Positions 1 through 23,165 of a DNA stretch of 38,431 nucleotides are shown here, in pieces. A program made the position numbers and the translations under genes. This DNA comes from Pseudomonas sp. (GTDB lineage: Bacteria; Pseudomonadota; Gammaproteobacteria; Pseudomonadales; Pseudomonadaceae). How positions within the stretch are numbered: the first letter of the stretch is position 1; each line of letters begins with the position of its first letter. The stretch covers positions 1 through 38,431 of the forward strand of contig JAUVYN010000027.1 in NCBI GenBank assembly GCA_030603065.1, in the 5' to 3' direction. The notes beneath the pieces are model-generated. The model was given only the letters and a program-made list of their open reading frames with translations. It was not told the DNA's origin and did no database searches.

Positions 1-354
1 CCGCCAAAGGCCGGCGCCGAGTCTTTCAATACGGGTTAGTCCGCTCCACCAGTTCGCCAGATAGAGCCCCATTGCGACCAGCAGCAGTCCGGCAAACACT
101 CGCAGAGCGATGTCCAGACCCAGATCCCTGAGAAGCCAGCCGAGACTCCCGAATAGCGCGCCGGCCAGGGTGTAGCTGGTCAGTCGGCCGATATTGTAGC
201 CAAGCAGGATTTTCCACAGGCGCCACCCGTGCCGCTGCTCTGGTGGAATGGCCAGCGACATGGCGCCCATCAGTCCGCCACACATGCCGATGCAATGGCC
301 TCCGCCGAGCAGGCCGAGGGCAAGGGCAGTGAGGAGCAAGGTCAGTATCTCCAT
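1..354 (-). CDS. TauE/SafE-like membrane protein (5' part)
   Basis: This is a partial gene that runs off the left edge; 118 codons are visible from an ATG at 354. The N-terminus has a hydrophobic segment with many Leu and a Gly-Gly-Gly-His-Cys-X-Gly-Met-Cys-Gly-Gly motif (about residues 17-27). That motif is typical of the sulfite exporter TauE/SafE-like (UreH/DsbD-like) membrane proteins found next to ccoS. Two further hydrophobic segments follow at about residues 60-75 and 85-102. It lies directly downstream of ccoS (2 bp gap), so it is probably the last gene of the ccoGHIS transcript. The paired Cys near the membrane suggest a role in metal (copper) or thiol handling during oxidase assembly, but that is inference. 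The family call is fairly sure; the substrate is unknown. Confidence 0.75.
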   Translation of the reverse strand, partial: MEILTLLLTALALGLLGGGHCIGMCGGLMGAMSLAIPPEQRHGWRLWKILLGYNIGRLTSYTLAGALFGSLGWLLRDLGLDIALRVFAGLLLVAMGLYLANWWSGLTRIERLGAGLWR

Positions 355-6899: not shown

Positions 6900-8327
<1,428 letters not shown>

Positions 8328-8375
8328 GCGAGATTCCACGGATAGCAATGGGTTGAGGGGTTCAAAACCGGCGCA

Positions 8376-8381
8376 AGTATG
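8376..8381 (-). promoter_or_regulatory. Possible ccoN -10 element
   Basis: On the minus strand this reads CATACT, 4 of 6 matches to TATAAT. It is placed so that the start point would fall near 8369, about 41 bp from the centre of the ANR/FNR-like box. That is the class II activator spacing expected for FNR-type control, and it would leave a leader of about 40 nt before the ccoN ATG. Confidence 0.4.
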
Positions 8382-8403
8382 AGGAAACACCGGTTGGTTT
8401 GCA

Positions 8404-8417
8404 ATGACGCAAGTCAA
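8404..8417 (-). promoter_or_regulatory. ANR/FNR-type box upstream of ccoN
   Basis: On the minus strand this reads TTGAC-TTGC-GTCAT, close to the ANR/FNR consensus TTGAT-N4-ATCAA (palindromic variant TTGAC-N4-GTCAA with one mismatch). It lies about 77-90 bp before the ccoN start with a -10-like element at the right distance, so ANR activation of ccoNOQP under low oxygen is likely. The remainder of the 357-bp gap between ccoN and the hydrolase (8328-8684) holds the opposing promoter region, and I see no gene in it. Confidence 0.6.
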
Positions 8418-8684
8418 TGGAAACAAGCAGTGCCGCCGCGCTGGCGTGCGCCTTTCAGCGCCGTCAATCCTGGGGCGAGGGGGTGTCGGCAGGCGGTTGA
8501 TCGTACACCCCGAAGGGGGTAGCGCCTGTCCCTCCCATGGACTGGTCGACTGCGCCCGGGCTTTATAGTCGTTATTGCAAATCGGAGTCCGGGCAGACCA
8601 AGGGTAGTATTCGACTCGGTGAATGTGAAGTTCGTTCCAGCCGAACGGCTGTGTCATCTTGTCGCAGAAGTGAAAGGGGGACCG

Positions 8685-9308
8685 ATGCAAGACGTATTTC
8701 TGATTGATGAGCCACCCACCGTACCATGGGCAACGCTGTTGCTGGCCCATGGTGCGGGCGCGCCGATGGACAGCACCTTCATGAACTCGCTGGCCGCTTC
8801 GGTGGCAGCTCACGGGGTGAGGGTAGCGCGTTTCGAGTTTCCCTATATGGCCAACCGACGGGAAACCGGCCGCAAGCGCCCTCCCGATCGGATGCCTGTA
8901 CTGGAACAGGCATTCCTTGATCTGGCTGCGGAGATTCCCGGACCGTTATGTATTGGCGGAAAATCGATGGGCGGACGTGTAGCGAGTCTGATCGCCGCCC
9001 GGTGCGATGCGATGGGGGTGATCTGCTTCGGCTATCCGTTCCACCCGCCGGGAAGACCGGAGCGCACACGCGTCGAGCATCTTCACGCGCTTGAGCTGCC
9101 CGGCCTGATCCTGCAGGGCACCCGGGATCCCTTTGGCAAGCCGGAGGAGGTCAGCGGTTACTCCCTCAGCCCGCAGGTCAGAGTGGTCTGGATCGACAGC
9201 GGGGACCACGACCTAAAGCCATTGAAGAAAAGCGGCGCGACGCAGGCGGTTCTCATGGAGGCGGCCGCTGCGGAAGCAGCGGCGTTCATGCGCGAGCAGT
9301 TGGGCTGA
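8685..9308 (+). CDS. alpha/beta hydrolase of the KANL3/Tex30 type
   Basis: This is a predicted cytoplasmic serine hydrolase of 207 residues. It shows [16 protein letters not shown] near the N-terminus (oxyanion region), the nucleophile elbow [11 protein letters not shown], an Asp in GTRDPFG and a His in DSGDHDL, so the Ser-Asp-His triad appears intact. This pattern matches the KANL3/Tex30 alpha/beta hydrolase-like family of bacterial proteins with unknown substrate. The frame is open upstream to 8619, but the ATG at 8685 has a strong ribosome binding site (AAAGGGGG) a few bases before it. It is divergent from ccoN and convergent with the chemoreceptor gene. Confidence 0.8.
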
Positions 9309-9314
9309 CGCCGT

Positions 9315-11021
9315 TCAGATACCCATTGCAGAGGGCATTACCGCAGCCGACATGGTGCCCCAGCGGCGGCCTTTGACCTCGATGGGCACGTAGAGTACGA
9401 ATACTACGACGCTGGTGCCGGGCATTACGAAGGTGCCCAGGTTGAGGTAGGTGCAACTGGCCATGATGCGCAGGTCGGTAGAATTGGTGACCGCGAAACG
9501 CTTGTAGTTGCTGCGCACCGCGTCCACCTTGGGGTCGCCGGTAGGTGGCTGCGAGGACGCGCTTCGGCTGGTAGGCAGGTAGCCCTTTTCGTTGACCGCA
9601 GCGGTGTAGACGATGCCGTCCTTGCCACCCTGGTCCCATTCGTCGAGCAGGGGGCGTATGGCGCGAATGAATGCATCGGCCCAGGTCACATCGTGTTTTG
9701 GCGGATTGGTATTGGCGATCGGCGTGTAGTGCTCGTCGAACAGGTTGACGCCGCTGTCGGCAAGCTCGGCGAGCCGACGCTCGATTTCCTGCCGCCGGGA
9801 CATCAGCAGCTCGGTGACCGCCTCCATCTGGCCTTCGCCGAGACGGAAGCCAGCCAGTGAGCGAAGGGTTATATTCGTGTTGTCGCGTAGCGAATCGGCC
9901 TGTGCAAAGGTGTCTTCCATACGCTTGCTGATGGTGACGCTCAGTTCCCGTATCTGCCCGCCATGGCGCAGGGTTTCGCTGTTGGTCGCGGTCAGCTCCT
10001 CCAGAGCGCTGCTGACCATGAGCAGATCGTCGTTGGCTTGCTGGAAATCCTCCACCATGGCGTCGAACTGGTCCGCTGCCAGGCTCACCGCCTCGCCGGT
10101 GGCTTCTGTCTGACCAAGCATGCCGCTGGTCTGCTGCTCGGCCGCCACCATCGCCTTGGTCATCTGCTCCATGAGTTGGCTGATCTGCTCTGCGGCGTTG
10201 CCAACCTTGAAAGACAGATTGCGCACCTCGTCTGCGACGACGGCAAAGCCCCGTCCCTGTTCTCCGGCGCGTGCCGCCTCGATTGCCGCGTTGAGGGCGA
10301 GCATGTTGGTCTGTGCAGAAAAGTCCTGCACGGTAGAGAGTATGTCGCGCACCTTCGCAGATGTGGCATTTAGTTCGTTGATATTGTCCTGGAAGCCGCT
10401 CATTGCGCCGCTGATCAGCTGCATCTTCTGCCTGGCGTCGGCCATTTGCTTCTTCGACGCGCTGGCCAGTTCCAGGTTGCGCGTATTCATGCCGCTAACC
10501 CCGTTGGCCCGTGCCGATACGTCCTGCAGGGCAGCAGTGGTCTGCTCGCTACCCTGAAAGATCAGCTCGGAGAGCTGCTGTTGCTGGGCTGCGTCTCGGG
10601 CCGCCTGTTCTGCAAGTAATCGACTGGTGGCCGAAGCGAGGGCGGTGCGCAGGCTATTGGCTTGCAGCTCTGCGATCACGTCGCGCAGGCGCTGGTTCAG
10701 CTCGTTGAAAAGTTGCTGACTCTCGTCGCCCTGGCTGCCTGCTTCGCGCACCCGCAGGTCGATCTGGCGAGAATTGACCTGCTTGATCCGTTCAGCCAGG
10801 CTGCCGCCTGTGCTGCGCCCTTTGACTGCCTGCCAGGCGAACATCAATGCCGCGGGTCCCAGTATCAGTGCAAGCAGGCGGACAAAACCTTCGCCTTGCC
10901 AGGCCAGGGCGCCTATCAGACTCACCAGACACAGAAACAGTGCTGCTGTACTGCCTACTCGGGATGGGTCGCGCTGTCCCGTTCCCTCTTCGGTCGCAAT
11001 AACGGATTCCCTGACGTTCAT
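9315..11021 (-). CDS. methyl-accepting chemotaxis protein with C-terminal Cache-like sensor
   Basis: This is a 568-residue chemoreceptor-like protein. Two adjacent hydrophobic segments (about 25-42 and 47-63) have no long periplasmic loop between them. A coiled coil and the MCP signalling hairpin follow, with [20 protein letters not shown] and [17 protein letters not shown] near residues 235-270. After the signalling domain comes a C-terminal domain (about 430-568) with [36 protein letters not shown] and [11 protein letters not shown] recognise these as the Cache-like sensor usually found C-terminal in cytosolic MCPs. The input would then be sensed in the cytoplasm or at the membrane face. 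No CheR-binding pentapeptide is seen at the C-terminus. A GAGGGA ribosome binding site precedes the start. Confidence 0.85.
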
Positions 11022-14344: not shown

Positions 14345-14439
14345 TGGCGGAGGGGAATAGGAGTCGAACCTACCGGACGCGCCTGGCGCATCCCACCGGG
14401 TTTGAAATCCGGGCGCTCCACCGGGAGCGATGCCCCTCC
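14345..14439 (-). tRNA. selC: tRNA-Sec (anticodon TCA)
   Basis: The minus strand folds as a 95-nt selenocysteine tRNA, the same length as E. coli selC, with CCA encoded. It has a long acceptor arm (GGAGGGG pairs with CCCCTCC plus an eighth C/T position), the Sec-specific 6-bp D stem CGCTCC/GGAGCG with loop CGGT, and the anticodon loop TTTCAAA with TCA. A long variable arm (GATGCGCC...GGCGCGTC) and a T loop TTCGACT follow. Two non-Watson-Crick positions (acceptor pair 8; anticodon pair 31-39, A/C) are notable. The cell should therefore also have selA, selB, selD and at least one selenoprotein, typically a formate dehydrogenase, outside this window. Confidence 0.93.
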
Positions 14440-20004: not shown

Positions 20005-20397
20005 TCAGCAGGAGGGTCCGATCTCTACCGCCTCTCCATTGATCCGAACCGGCCAGGTTGCCAGCTGCTGGTCCGGGTATTCGACGCAGCTGCCATCCTT
20101 CAGGCGAAAATGCTGCTTGTACAGTGGGGAGGCGATAACCAGATCGCCCTTCAGGTGGCCGATGATCCCGCGGCCAATGACATTGGCGCCAGACTTCGGA
20201 TCGCGGTTTTCCACCGCAAAGATCTGTTCTCCTTCTGGCGCATCCGGCAGGTAGAACAATGCGATCTGGGCGCCCTGATGCCAGGCTACTACGCCGGAAT
20301 TGGCGACCAAATCGGCTCGGCTGCAAAGAGGCTGCCAGGCAACGGGGTAGATGCTGGGCTTGAGTGCCACGGAACGCAGGGTGTTGAGCGGGCTCAT
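20005..20397 (-). CDS. nirD: Assimilatory nitrite reductase (NADH) small subunit NirD
   Basis: NirD is the Rieske-like small subunit of cytoplasmic NADH nitrite reductase. The 130-residue protein has the NirD fold pattern (VALFYLPD-like strand, IFAVENRDPKSGANVIGRGIIG, ASPLYKQHFRLKDGSCVEYPDQQLATWPVR). The two CxH/CxxH cluster motifs of true Rieske proteins are absent, as in other NirD proteins. The ATG at 20397 shares one base with the nirB stop (TGATG), so translation is coupled. The open frame continues upstream within nirB, but that part is a shadow. Confidence 0.94.
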   Translation of the reverse strand: MSPLNTLRSVALKPSIYPVAWQPLCSRADLVANSGVVAWHQGAQIALFYLPDAPEGEQIFAVENRDPKSGANVIGRGIIGHLKGDLVIASPLYKQHFRLKDGSCVEYPDQQLATWPVRINGEAVEIGPSC

Positions 20398-22955
20398 CAG
20401 AGTACCTCCTCGGTCACGGGAATCAGGTGAAGTTCGGATGCGCGGACCGGCCGCCGCTGGCCGCGCTCCTTGACGAAGTGAATGTCCGGATCGCCTCGCT
20501 CGTCGTTGACGAAGGTGCGGAAGCGCTTGAGTTTTTCCGGGTCCTTGAGCGCGTTGGCCCACTCGCATTCGTAGCGGTCGACTACCAATTGCATCTGCGC
20601 TTCGAGTTCGGCGCACAGGCCCAGGCTGTCTTCGATGATGACCTCCTTGAGATAGTCCAGGCCGCCTTCGAGGCTTTCGCGCCAGACCGACGTGCGTTGC
20701 AGCTTGTCCGCGGTACGTACGTAGAACATCAGCACCCGGTCGATATAGCGAACCAGCGTGGCATCATCCAGATCGGTGGCGAACAATTCGGCATGGCGTG
20801 GACGCATTCCACCGTTGCCGCAGATATAGAGGTTCCAGCCCTTGTCAGTGGCGATCACGCCGATATCCTTGCTTTGCGCCTCAGCGCACTCGCGGGTGCA
20901 GCCGCTGACCGCGAACTTGATCTTGTGCGGTGCGCGCAGGCCTTTGTAACGATCTTCCAGGGCGATTGCCATGCCGACGCTGTCCTGCACGCCGTAGCGG
21001 CACCAGGTGCTTCCCACACAGGATTTGACCGTGCGCAGGGACTTGCCGTAGGCGTGGCCGGTTTCGAAGCCGGCTTCGATCAGCTCTGCCCAAATATCCG
21101 GCAGTTGGTGCAGCTGTGCGCCGAACAGATCGATGCGCTGGCCCCCGGTGATCTTGGTATACAGATCGTATTTCTTGGCAACGGCGCCCAGGGTGATCAG
21201 CTTATCCGGCGTGATCTCGCCACCGGCGATGCGCGGCACGATGGAGTAGGTGCCGTTCTTCTGCATGTTCGCCATGAAGGTATCGTTGGTGTCCTGCAGA
21301 GGGACCAGCAGCGGATCGGTGATCGGCTGGTTCCAGCAGGAGGCCAGGATCGAGCCCACCGCAGGCTTGCAGATGTCGCAGCCCACGTGGCCCTTGCCAT
21401 GCTTGGCAAGCAGCTCCTCGAAGGTCTCGATACCTTCGACCCGGACGATGCCGTAGAGCTCCTGGCGGGTATAGGCGAAGTGTTCGCAAAGGCTCTTGTC
21501 GACTTCGACCCCGCGGGCGCTGAGCTCGTGCTCGAATACCTGCTTGACCAGCGCGGCGCATCCGCCGCAGCCACTTGCGGCCTTGGTCACCGCTTTCAGT
21601 TCGCCAAGATCGGTGATGCCGGCATCCACCTGGCAGCAAACGGCGCCCTTGCTTACGTTGTGACAGGAGCACAGCGTTGCGGTGTCAGGCAGAGCATCAG
21701 CGCCCAGCGTTGGTGCGCCGTCGGAAACCGGCAGGATCAGGGTCGATGGATCCGCCGGCAACTTGATGCCGTTCTGTGCGTACTGCAGCAGCGTGTCGTA
21801 ATAGCTGTTGTCCCCGACCAGCACCGCCCCGATCACGGTCTTCCCATCAGGGGAAACTACCAGGCGGCGGTAGCTGTTATTGGATTCATCGATAAAGCGA
21901 TAGCTCTTGGCGCCGGGTGTGGCGCCATGAGCATCGCCGATCGATCCGACATCCACACCCAGCAGCTTGAGCTTGGTGGACATATCGGCGCCGACGAAGG
22001 ACTCGTGATCCTCGCCGACCAGTTGCAGCGCGAGGTTGCGCGCCATGGTGTAACCGGGAGCCACCAGGCCGAAGCAGGTGCCGTTCCAGGCAGCGCATTC
22101 GCCGATGGCGTAAATGGTGGGATCGCTGGTACGGAAGTCACTGTCGATGACCACACCACCGCGCTCGCCGATTGCCAGGCCGGCCTGGCGGCCCAGTGCA
22201 TCCTGCGGACGGATGCCGGCAGAGAAGAGAATCAGATCGGTCTCGAGGAATTCGCCGTCGCTGAAGTTCATGCGGTAGGCGTAATCCGTGCCAGCGACGA
22301 TTTCCCTGGTTGCACGGGAGAGGTGTACTCCTACGCCGAGGGCCTCGATGCGGGCCCGCAAAGCGGCGCCCCCTTCATCATCCAGCTGCACCGGCATCAG
22401 CCGCGGGGCGAACTCCACCACATGGGCTTCCAGCCCAAGCGACTTGAGCGCATTGGCAGCCTCAAGGCCCAGCAGGCCGCCGCCGACCACGACGCCACGA
22501 CGAGCGTTGGTTGCCGCAGCGCGGATGCCGTCCAGATCTTCCAGCGTTCGATAGACCAGCCGCGAGTTGCCTTCAGCGCCGGGGATTGGGGGCACAAAGG
22601 GATAGGAGCCGGTCGCCAGCACCAGACGGTCATAGCGCTGGCGACCCTGTGTGGTAATGACTTCCCGGTTGTCGCGATCAATTTCCAGCACCTGTACGCC
22701 AAGGTGCAGGTGCACACCATGGCAGTCGTACAGGTCGGGTGCGCAAAGAGCCAGCGATTCGGCGTCACGGCCACCGAAATACTCGGAAAGGTGCACGCGG
22801 TCGTAGGCGCGCTGGCGCTCTTCGCCGAAAACATGCACATCATAGTGAGACAGGGCGCCGCGCTCGATGAGCTGCTCGACACAGTGATGACCGACCATGC
22901 CGTTGCCGATGATGACCAGCGTTTCGCTCTTGATCGGGTTGACGATGGAGTTCAT
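20397..22955 (-). CDS. nirB: Assimilatory nitrite reductase (NADH) large subunit NirB
   Basis: NirB reduces nitrite to ammonium with NADH in the cytoplasm. The 852-residue protein has an FAD/NAD(P)H domain at the N-terminus (IIGNGMVGHHC at about 16-26; second dinucleotide motif GVVVGGGLLGLEAA). BFD-like [2Fe-2S] ligands follow (CSCHNVSKGAVCCQ, then SGCGGCAALVKQ, around 430-475), then a C-terminal siroheme/[4Fe-4S] nitrite/sulfite reductase domain with SCVGSTWCRYGVQD, SGCTRECAEAQSKD and CGNGG (about 645-705). The start MNSIVNPIKSETLVIIGNG at 22955 has GAGGAAAGG just upstream. No nitrate reductase or nitrate transporter gene is adjacent in this window. Its 5' region has a sigma-54 promoter and an attenuator-like leader. 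Confidence 0.96.
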   Translation of the reverse strand: MNSIVNPIKSETLVIIGNGMVGHHCVEQLIERGALSHYDVHVFGEERQRAYDRVHLSEYFGGRDAESLALCAPDLYDCHGVHLHLGVQVLEIDRDNREVITTQGRQRYDRLVLATGSYPFVPPIPGAEGNSRLVYRTLEDLDGIRAAATNARRGVVVGGGLLGLEAANALKSLGLEAHVVEFAPRLMPVQLDDEGGAALRARIEALGVGVHLSRATREIVAGTDYAYRMNFSDGEFLETDLILFSAGIRPQDALGRQAGLAIGERGGVVIDSDFRTSDPTIYAIGECAAWNGTCFGLVAPGYTMARNLALQLVGEDHESFVGADMSTKLKLLGVDVGSIGDAHGATPGAKSYRFIDESNNSYRRLVVSPDGKTVIGAVLVGDNSYYDTLLQYAQNGIKLPADPSTLILPVSDGAPTLGADALPDTATLCSCHNVSKGAVCCQVDAGITDLGELKAVTKAASGCGGCAALVKQVFEHELSARGVEVDKSLCEHFAYTRQELYGIVRVEGIETFEELLAKHGKGHVGCDICKPAVGSILASCWNQPITDPLLVPLQDTNDTFMANMQKNGTYSIVPRIAGGEITPDKLITLGAVAKKYDLYTKITGGQRIDLFGAQLHQLPDIWAELIEAGFETGHAYGKSLRTVKSCVGSTWCRYGVQDSVGMAIALEDRYKGLRAPHKIKFAVSGCTRECAEAQSKDIGVIATDKGWNLYICGNGGMRPRHAELFATDLDDATLVRYIDRVLMFYVRTADKLQRTSVWRESLEGGLDYLKEVIIEDSLGLCAELEAQMQLVVDRYECEWANALKDPEKLKRFRTFVNDERGDPDIHFVKERGQRRPVRASELHLIPVTEEVL

Positions 22956-22971
22956 AGCCTTTCCTCTGTCG

Positions 22972-23013
22972 AAAAAAAAGGCGCCTGGAATCCGGGGGAC
23001 TCCAGGCGCCTTT
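22972..23013 (-). terminator. Leader (attenuator) terminator of nirBD
   Basis: On the minus strand AAAGGCGCCTGGA (23013-23001) pairs perfectly with TCCAGGCGCCTTT (22989-22977) around an 11-base loop, and a run of eight T ends at 22972. This is a strong intrinsic terminator placed 17 bp upstream of the nirB start codon, where it would block nirBD unless antitermination occurs. Confidence 0.85.
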
Positions 23014-23088
23014 GCCTGTATTCATGGGTATGTAGGAATGTCATCCGGCGGCACTGCCTGGCGCATTCCGTTCCGTGCCTCCTCAGGC

Positions 23089-23108
23089 AGCGGTCGCCTT
23101 TGACCGCT
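23089..23108 (-). promoter_or_regulatory. Hexaloop hairpin, ANTAR-type P1
   Basis: On the minus strand the stem AGCGGTC/GACCGCT (7 perfect pairs) closes the six-base loop AAAGGC, which has A at position 1 and G at position 4 as in the ANTAR-protein RNA target. A second partner hairpin is less clear. One option is the imperfect stem GGCACG/TGCGCC at 23079-23060, with loop GAACGGAA that may close to AACGGA (also A1, G4). Another is a short TGCC/GGCA stem with loop TGAGGA. Confidence 0.6.
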
Positions 23109-23148
23109 CGGAACATCCGGCGCATTCGCAACCGGACAATTTTCATAA

Positions 23149-23165
23149 AGCAAGGGGTGTGCCAG
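23149..23165 (-). promoter_or_regulatory. Sigma-54 (-24/-12) promoter of nirBD
   Basis: On the minus strand this reads CTGGCACACCCCTTGCT. It matches the RpoN consensus YTGGCAC-N5-TTGCW, with exactly ten bases between the GG and GC dinucleotides. The start point should fall near 23138. Together with the NtrC-like sites upstream, it places nirBD under nitrogen control. Confidence 0.85.

Follow-up and report, generated by a model that had tools for sequence, protein, structure and literature searches.

A probable NasT-type ANTAR attenuator with three candidate protein-binding hexaloops in the nirBD leader of a Pseudomonas species

The nirBD operon and its leader

The stretch of Pseudomonas sp. 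DNA analysed here in its full length of 38,431 nt, which we call the window (contig JAUVYN010000027.1 of assembly GCA_030603065.1, a genome of 3.59 Mb in 171 contigs), carries on its minus strand the nitrite reductase operon nirBD. The operon is preceded by a 183-nt leader (23138-22956) that appears, from computed folding, to have three protein-binding loops where two are usual. It consists of nirB (20397..22955), which encodes the 852-amino-acid large subunit (NF011565, 1249.7 bits; TIGR02374, 1071.1 bits), and nirD (20005..20397), which encodes the small subunit (TIGR02378, 92.9 bits); all three scores are above cut-off, and the nirB stop codon overlaps the nirD start codon (ATGA). An initial annotation had predicted a transcription attenuator of the ANTAR/NasT type at this position. 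Both the class of the element and the type of regulator are borne out by our data: nasS and nasT are found in the genome, the stems of the leader covary, and the leader co-occurs with genes of this kind.

Folding of the region 22956-23150 gives a z-score of -6.6. The leader contains a junction domain (23070..23114), seen in the computed fold and by covariation, in which helix J (GUUCCG, 23114-23109, paired with CGGAAC, 23075-23070) encloses the hairpins P1 and P1b in a three-way junction with a computed energy of -24.5 kcal/mol. P1 (23089..23108; AGCGGUC-AAAGGC-GACCGCU) is the proposed NasT recruitment hairpin. Its perfect 7-bp stem and its hexaloop AAAGGC (23101-23096), with A at position 1 and G at position 4 (the A1/G4 rule), stand as initially described, and the loop is closed by a C:G pair. 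P1b (23077..23088; GCCU-GAGG-AGGC) is a small hairpin of the computed fold, for which support from the alignments ranges from weak to better. Folding, alignment and covariation all point to M (23035..23069), a second upstream hairpin with the C:G-closed A1/G4 hexaloop AGUGCC (23055-23050) and a computed energy of -14.2 kcal/mol; its stem has three contiguous pairs beneath the loop, followed by a bulge.

The third hairpin, P2 (23003..23018; CAGGC-AAAGGC-GCCUG), is the candidate antiterminator and was found by a scan of the leader and in the computed fold (-8.6 kcal/mol alone). Its loop (23013-23008) is identical to that of P1, and all three loops in the window have A at position 1, G at position 4 and C:G closure. 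The loop and 3' strand of P2 form the beginning of the 5' arm of an intrinsic terminator (22972..23013), composed of a hairpin at 23013-22977 (-31.4 kcal/mol, computed) and a T8 run at 22979-22972 that ends 16 nt from the nirB ATG. The hairpin and T8 run had been recognized in the initial annotation, but with a stem of 13 pairs; the computed stem has 17, around a 3-nt loop. P2 therefore overlaps the terminator, and computed folding indicates that the two exclude each other. In folds of the growing RNA the closing pair of P2 has a probability of 0.82-1.00 until the RNA ends at 22985; with the end at 22979 the terminator has a probability of 1.00 and P2 of 0.00. P1 (1.00) and the closing pair of M (0.94-0.98) are nearly constant throughout. 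The linker between P1 and P2 is about 70 nt, 35 of which are M.

When the 183-nt leader was shuffled 2000 times with its dinucleotides preserved, four of the shuffles contained a hairpin with a C:G-closed A1/G4 hexaloop on a stem of at least 7 bp. For stems of at least 3 bp, the three such hexaloops observed compare with a shuffle mean of 0.14, and one shuffle in 2000 reached three. A search of Rfam with the whole window and with the leader alone assigned the leader to no family at cut-off, and gave only chance-level matches below it (e.g. STnc40, E 1.5).

The antiterminator hairpin had previously been placed elsewhere, as a second hairpin with the loop AACGGA (23072-23067) and no overlap with the terminator. 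The letters at loop positions 1 and 4 of this hairpin fit the rule; however, inspection shows that its loop would have to be closed by G-A and its stem to include an A-C mismatch. Its bases are those of the 3' strand of helix J and the 5' strand of M, and it thus conflicts with two helices that both covary. We find this version hardly credible. With its second hairpin misassigned, the earlier scheme did not connect protein binding directly with the terminator; the overlap of P2 with the terminator provides this connection.

A sigma54-type -24/-12 promoter element, missed by the initial annotation, lies upstream of the leader as an exact pattern match (23149..23164, minus strand; TGGCACACCCCTTGCT), with TGGCAC-N5-TTGC at 23164-23150. 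It is the sole exact match to TGGCACNNNNNTTGC in the window, where 0.08 are expected and 8 of 100 shuffles contain one, and comparable elements are found upstream of nirB in other members of the genus. With the usual spacing from a sigma54 element, transcription is expected to start at about 23138; judged by its sequence, this putative promoter would place the start around 183 nt before nirB. Matches to a loose pattern for NtrC sites number 36 in the window, versus 26.8 expected, and we therefore make no claim for NtrC. Elsewhere in the window, a selenocysteine tRNA gene (14349-14439, minus strand; RF01852, 75.7 bits) is flanked by TRAP-transporter and ApbC-type genes.

Conservation and covariation of the leader in the Pseudomonadaceae

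Leaders of nirB were taken from loci L005-L028 and L035-L114, with L029-L034 left out. The 103 with at least 170 nt upstream of the gene were retained (L058, with 15 nt, was left out); they include five repeats of genus loci (L042, L046, L061, L066 and L073), by which the non-redundant set of 68 is unaffected. P2 followed by a T run is present in 88 of the 103 leaders, 68 of them non-redundant. The remaining 15 are 11 genus members, two repeats of these, L063 and L106. The contig of L106 starts with runs of C and A (1-172), an apparent sequencing or assembly fault that hides the leader; this locus is without P2 though its genome has NasT, and it was counted as an artefact, outside the 48 typed genomes described below.

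A far P1 (more than 58 nt upstream) is present in 36 of the 68 non-redundant leaders; in 16 the hairpin is a near one only, with 27 to 48 nt between its loop and P2, and under the strict rule the other 16 have neither. Where a match was simply the sigma54 element (starting with tggc or gtggcAC), it was not counted as P1; in five leaders from genomes whose only regulator is of the NIT-ANTAR type, this element accounts for all of the upstream hexaloop-like matches. In 25 of the 36 far-P1 leaders, the window included, the middle region holds a C:G-closed A1/G4 hexaloop on a stem of at least 3 bp, compared with a mean of 2.3 and at most 7 over 300 shuffles. If at least 4 bp are required of the stem, the count in the same region is 21 leaders, and 21 of the 27 C:G-closed hexaloops found there are A1/G4. 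A purely sequence-driven alignment places the AGUGCC loop of the window on the M hairpin of its relatives, and M of the window aligns to theirs both with and without the genus in the model.

An alignment of 24 leaders has 85.7% of its cells paired, versus 29-45% when slid. Its covariation is 0.261, compared with 0.155 when shuffled (reached in 0 of 500 shuffles) and 0.036-0.106 when slid, and changes on both sides are seen in 18 of 31 pairs, in every helix except P2; the number of further pair types is not above that in shuffles (36 versus 33.8). A model made from 18 leaders outside the genus of the window matches the window with 81.4 bits (E 5e-17). The 34 matches to this genus-free model, one of which was judged spurious, give an alignment with 90.2% of cells paired, covariation of 0.317 versus 0.116 shuffled and both-side changes in 22 of 31 pairs, a score that is favoured because the alignment was fitted to the structure. 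Helix J shows both-side changes in all five pairs in both alignments. In P1 the closing C:G and the next U:A are invariant and both-side changes occur in four of seven pairs (24 leaders) or five of seven (34 matches); the covariation of the hexaloop stem that was looked for across leaders is thus present. P1b is weak in the 24-leader alignment, with 56% of cells paired, and reaches 92% in the 34-match set, where 12 of 34 rows have gaps. The closing pairs of P1, M and P2 are invariant in the 24 leaders, and that of M in the 27 rows of the 34-match set that have letters there.

A further model, R1, was run against 99 sources, a set without the five repeats, loci L029-L034 and L005, which is the window itself. 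It matches 83 of the 99, and three of the five repeats match it like their twins. Canonical loops are found at P1, M and P2 in 31 of the 83 matches, at P1 and P2 in 36, at M and P2 in nine, and at P2 alone in seven. Lost loops often retain G4, with A1 changed to G, and may therefore be weak and not dead. To place these states in descent, a tree of NirB proteins was built (97 rows, FastTree), from which nine NIT-ANTAR-only rows were left out for the counts of P1 and M states; L081 was relabelled by hand, since the model had put its P1-type hairpin on the M columns. The tree requires at least four changes of the P1 state, at least six of the M state, and three of leader presence. Outside the NIT-ANTAR-only set, each of the 74 leaders matched by the model retains P1, M or both, most of these genomes being without NasT typing, and a test of whether M and P1 take each other's place had only three supported independent pairs to draw on.

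In six leaders from one genus of the family with genomes of 5.7-6.8 Mb (L123-L128), M is canonical in all six and P1 in four. Across the leader family the P1-P2 linkers range from about 19 to 77 nt. An order-wide search with the model matched 6 of 194 genomes, three of them outside the family and weak, and we therefore treat the architecture as a feature of the Pseudomonadaceae. The model's next-best match in the genome (C151, E 0.07) fits badly at P2, and we take it to be due to chance.

Regulator genes and leader architecture

The genome that contains the window has two ANTAR genes. A nasT-type gene had been sought as the partner of the predicted attenuator, and one is present beside nasS: the NasT candidate is a receiver-ANTAR protein whose neighbours are an NMT1-type binding protein (NasS) and a NarK-type MFS transporter, the latter scoring 305 bits on TIGR00886 (NarK family), just below the cut-off of 311.7. 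The second gene encodes an intact NIT-ANTAR protein of 443 amino acids (PF08376 and PF03861) and lies beside an NrtA-like gene. Related leaders occur at other loci of this genome. The leader of the nasB-nasA operon has the loop AAAGGC in P1 and again in P2, over a terminator; that of the transporter gene after nasT has AACGGC followed by AACGAC over a terminator (the latter on three pairs, read by eye); and that of nrtA shows, by the strict scan, a P2-type hairpin alone, with AACGGC over a terminator.

Some further observations concern these neighbourhoods. The nasB-nasA leader at L004 (7669-7769, minus strand; G000, contig 108) has three close A1/G4 hexaloops, AAAGGC, AAAGAT and AAAGGC, the middle one closed by G:C and not C:G, and a fused PP2C phosphatase-protein kinase gene (7870-9540, minus strand) lies between the nitrate transporter and nas reductase genes of that locus. 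At L139 a kinase-like gene likewise follows a transporter (read by eye), and a second leader of the same model (149-258, plus strand), 3 kb upstream of another match, precedes a transporter that resembles the FNT (formate/nitrite) family, a name taken from reading the sequence with no profile search.

Within the genus, an ANTAR gene is present in 13 of 13 genomes with a P2/terminator leader, and in none of the 11 that have a full-length nirB without the leader. One genome with a partial nirB (G029, locus L029) has neither leader nor ANTAR gene; of the further genus genomes, nine have ANTAR genes but no close nirB and three have neither. At L021-L029, which are without an ANTAR gene, a sigma54-type element lies 48-59 nt before nirB in nine of nine cases (eight full-length nirB loci and the partial L029), which leaves no room for an attenuator. 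Among 198 genomes of the family, ANTAR genes were found in 158; the 94 genomes with a model match all fall within these 158, and 0 of the 40 without ANTAR have one.

Regulators were typed with full-length NasT and NIT-ANTAR queries in 48 genomes, comprising the 24 genus genomes with full-length nirB and 24 others, of which 16 were chosen as leader examples and eight as odd, one of them for lacking the leader. NasT was found in 25 (five with both regulators), NIT-ANTAR only in 11, and neither in 12. A regulator is present in 36 of 36 genomes with a P2/terminator leader and in 0 of 12 without. In L063 the leader was seen to be absent before the genome was checked and found to have no ANTAR gene. 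A canonical P1 or M is present in 25 of 25 NasT genomes, versus 2 of 11 with NIT-ANTAR only. The NIT-ANTAR-only leaders without canonical P1 or M occupy five places on the NirB tree, several at weakly supported forks; the leader of the window, which has both P1 and M, falls outside the class with P2 and terminator alone that we associate with NIT-ANTAR. Five NIT-ANTAR-only members of the genus (L010, L011, L017, L018 and L019) keep P2 and the terminator with different upstream hairpins, two of them with G1/G4 hexaloops.

A model for antitermination and its alternatives

In P. aeruginosa and P. putida it is established that NasT brings about antitermination of nirBD through a leader, NalA (PMC12830290, PMC7261876, with reference to Romeo 2012 and Nie 2024). 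The window shares with NalA the gene, the bacterial family, the terminator before nirB, the NasS-NasT genes and a sigma54-dependent start, the last by sequence match only, and its element therefore belongs to a known kind. A second hairpin that overlaps the terminator is the arrangement of the studied ANTAR attenuators (PMC3369931, PMC7496416). The eutP, eutG, eutS and eutA leaders of Enterococcus faecalis, which act with EutV, have A1/G4 hexaloops and the P2-terminator overlap in common with the window (PMC3369931, PMC8934654); they have two hexaloops 5-12 nt apart, whereas the window has three, with P1 and P2 separated by about 70 nt and P1 set in a three-way junction. The nasF leader of Klebsiella oxytoca shares nitrate-responsive ANTAR attenuation, the two-hairpin motif and C:G-closed loops, a closure known from selection experiments (SELEX) with NasR (PMC7496416); in contrast, its regulator is a NIT-ANTAR protein, while the P1/M part of the window's leader tracks NasT. 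Paracoccus denitrificans nasA shares NasS-NasT and is preceded by two hairpins, named HI (137 bp) and HII (91 bp), of which HI is required for growth on nitrate, but it is another gene in another bacterial class, and a third hexaloop is unmentioned in the available text (PMC5424462). Three hairpins are predicted in a mycobacterial RNA bound by PdtaR, where the available text mentions neither hexaloops nor a terminator (PMC8131098). In the open-licence literature of PubMed Central, no ANTAR attenuator with three hexaloops was among the matches listed, and neither the two-recruiter architecture nor its tie to regulator identity was found. With the reservation that this literature sets the scope, we describe the leader as a variant of the known ANTAR kind with three hexaloops.

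We propose that the sigma54 promoter would start transcription about 183 nt before nirB. Without nitrate, P2 would form first and then be displaced by the far more stable terminator, which in the computed folds uses the same GCCUG strand, and transcription would stop just before nirB. With nitrate, NasS would release NasT, as is established in relatives. The freed NasT may be captured by the upstream hexaloops of P1 and M, which are predicted to be folded throughout; by analogy with the EutV model, it would then pass to the emerging P2, hold it and block the terminator, so that nirBD is read. P1 and M would act as interchangeable recruiters, of which some relatives keep both and some one.

That the leader is an ANTAR attenuator with a P2/terminator switch seems to us close to certain, and its full explanation as a NasT-type attenuator of the NasS-NasT system is very probable. 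A regulatory role for the NIT-ANTAR protein of the same genome at this leader, in place of NasT, has some points in its favour. The genome has an intact gene for it, and in Klebsiella the nasF leader is antiterminated by NasR (PMC7496416). In 9 of 11 NIT-ANTAR-only genomes nirB is still preceded by P2 and the terminator while a canonical P1 or M is lacking, so that this class can evidently function with nirB leaders. However, the presence of canonical P1 or M follows NasT in the typed genomes, the window has both hairpins, and the leader of the nrtA-like gene next to the NIT-ANTAR gene has, by the strict scan, a P2-type hairpin alone. We consider its action here unlikely, and NasT in all likelihood the regulator. 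It is more improbable still that the leader serves mainly as a stable small RNA, with a constitutive or sRNA-producing terminator and unregulated read-through. In relatives the corresponding leader is treated as a named RNA, NalA (PMC12830290); against this, the NirB tree has three places where leader and ANTAR genes are missing together, and where leaders are retained their P2 is conserved.

The role of M is less clear-cut. P1 and P2 alone might bind NasT, with M a structural spacer that joins them and its A1/G4 loop incidental, which we regard as a real possibility, though not the one we expect. M is absent from leaders of the P. putida and P. gingeri types, where a P1-type hairpin lies about 45 nt upstream of P2, so that P1 and P2 there suffice; moreover, the letters of the P1-type stem (GGUC/GAYC) are better conserved, and the M stem of the window is bulged. 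Set against this, M loops retain the C:G closure, A1 and G4 while the stem and the other loop letters change, and a canonical M occurs without a canonical P1 in 9 of 83 leaders, among them L081, whose M is probably a P1-type hairpin aligned to the M columns, and the NIT-ANTAR-only L037. On balance M is rather probably a working NasT site. NasT might also grip the hexaloops simultaneously, with M looped out.

A number of points weigh against the NasT-type reading or its parts. With three contiguous pairs before the bulge, M of the window passes the 3-bp version of the enrichment test and fails the 4-bp version. The canonical P2 in 83 of 83 R1 matches is partly ascertainment, P2 having served to find the leaders. 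NCBIfam gives neither ANTAR protein an above-cut-off match, and the two are named from their Pfam domains and from gene order. Under strict filters, 64 of the 158 family genomes with ANTAR are without a model match. Of the 24 typed genomes from outside the genus, 23 were drawn from leader carriers and 8 were taken for oddness; within the genus, where there was no such selection, the P1/M contrast is 7 of 7 versus 1 of 6. L012 (79% complete) and L037 retain a canonical P1 or M with NIT-ANTAR only. The co-occurrence counts ignore descent, the changes on the tree number only three (leader), four (P1) and six (M), and the independent-pairs test has too few pairs for significance. Lastly, lengthening a eut linker to 14 nt is harmful (PMC3369931), and the linker of the window is far longer. 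The 2012 definition of the ANTAR motif (Ramesh 2012) permits a variable linker (PMC3369931), and the linker of about 70 nt therefore marks a variant and not an exclusion.

Taken together, the leaders suggest a modular ANTAR relay, which we put forward tentatively as a plausible reading: a shared P2/terminator would be fed by interchangeable P1 and M, and these recruiters, specific to NasT, would be discarded on a switch to NIT-ANTAR. Work from 2012 described the ANTAR protein as associating with a two-hairpin element (PMC8934654, PMC3369931). From the 2022 structure of EutV with RNA it was argued that a single dimer is unable to hold the two hexaloops of the same RNA, and recruitment followed by hand-off to the antitermination hairpin was proposed (PMC8934654). 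The leader family appears to fit such a hand-off, with a constant P2, one or two recruiters, none where the regulator differs, and linkers of about 19 to 77 nt. The use of two hexaloops by an ANTAR dimer is unsettled, and a natural family with two, one or no recruiters before the same P2 offers a ready-made test set, to which it adds the range of linker lengths and matched differences in regulator; our covariance model is provided where Rfam matched nothing. If true, the relay would favour successive hand-off of the ANTAR dimer over the simultaneous gripping of two hexaloops. The leader family would also tie nitrite assimilation in these bacteria to nitrate through a defined RNA switch.
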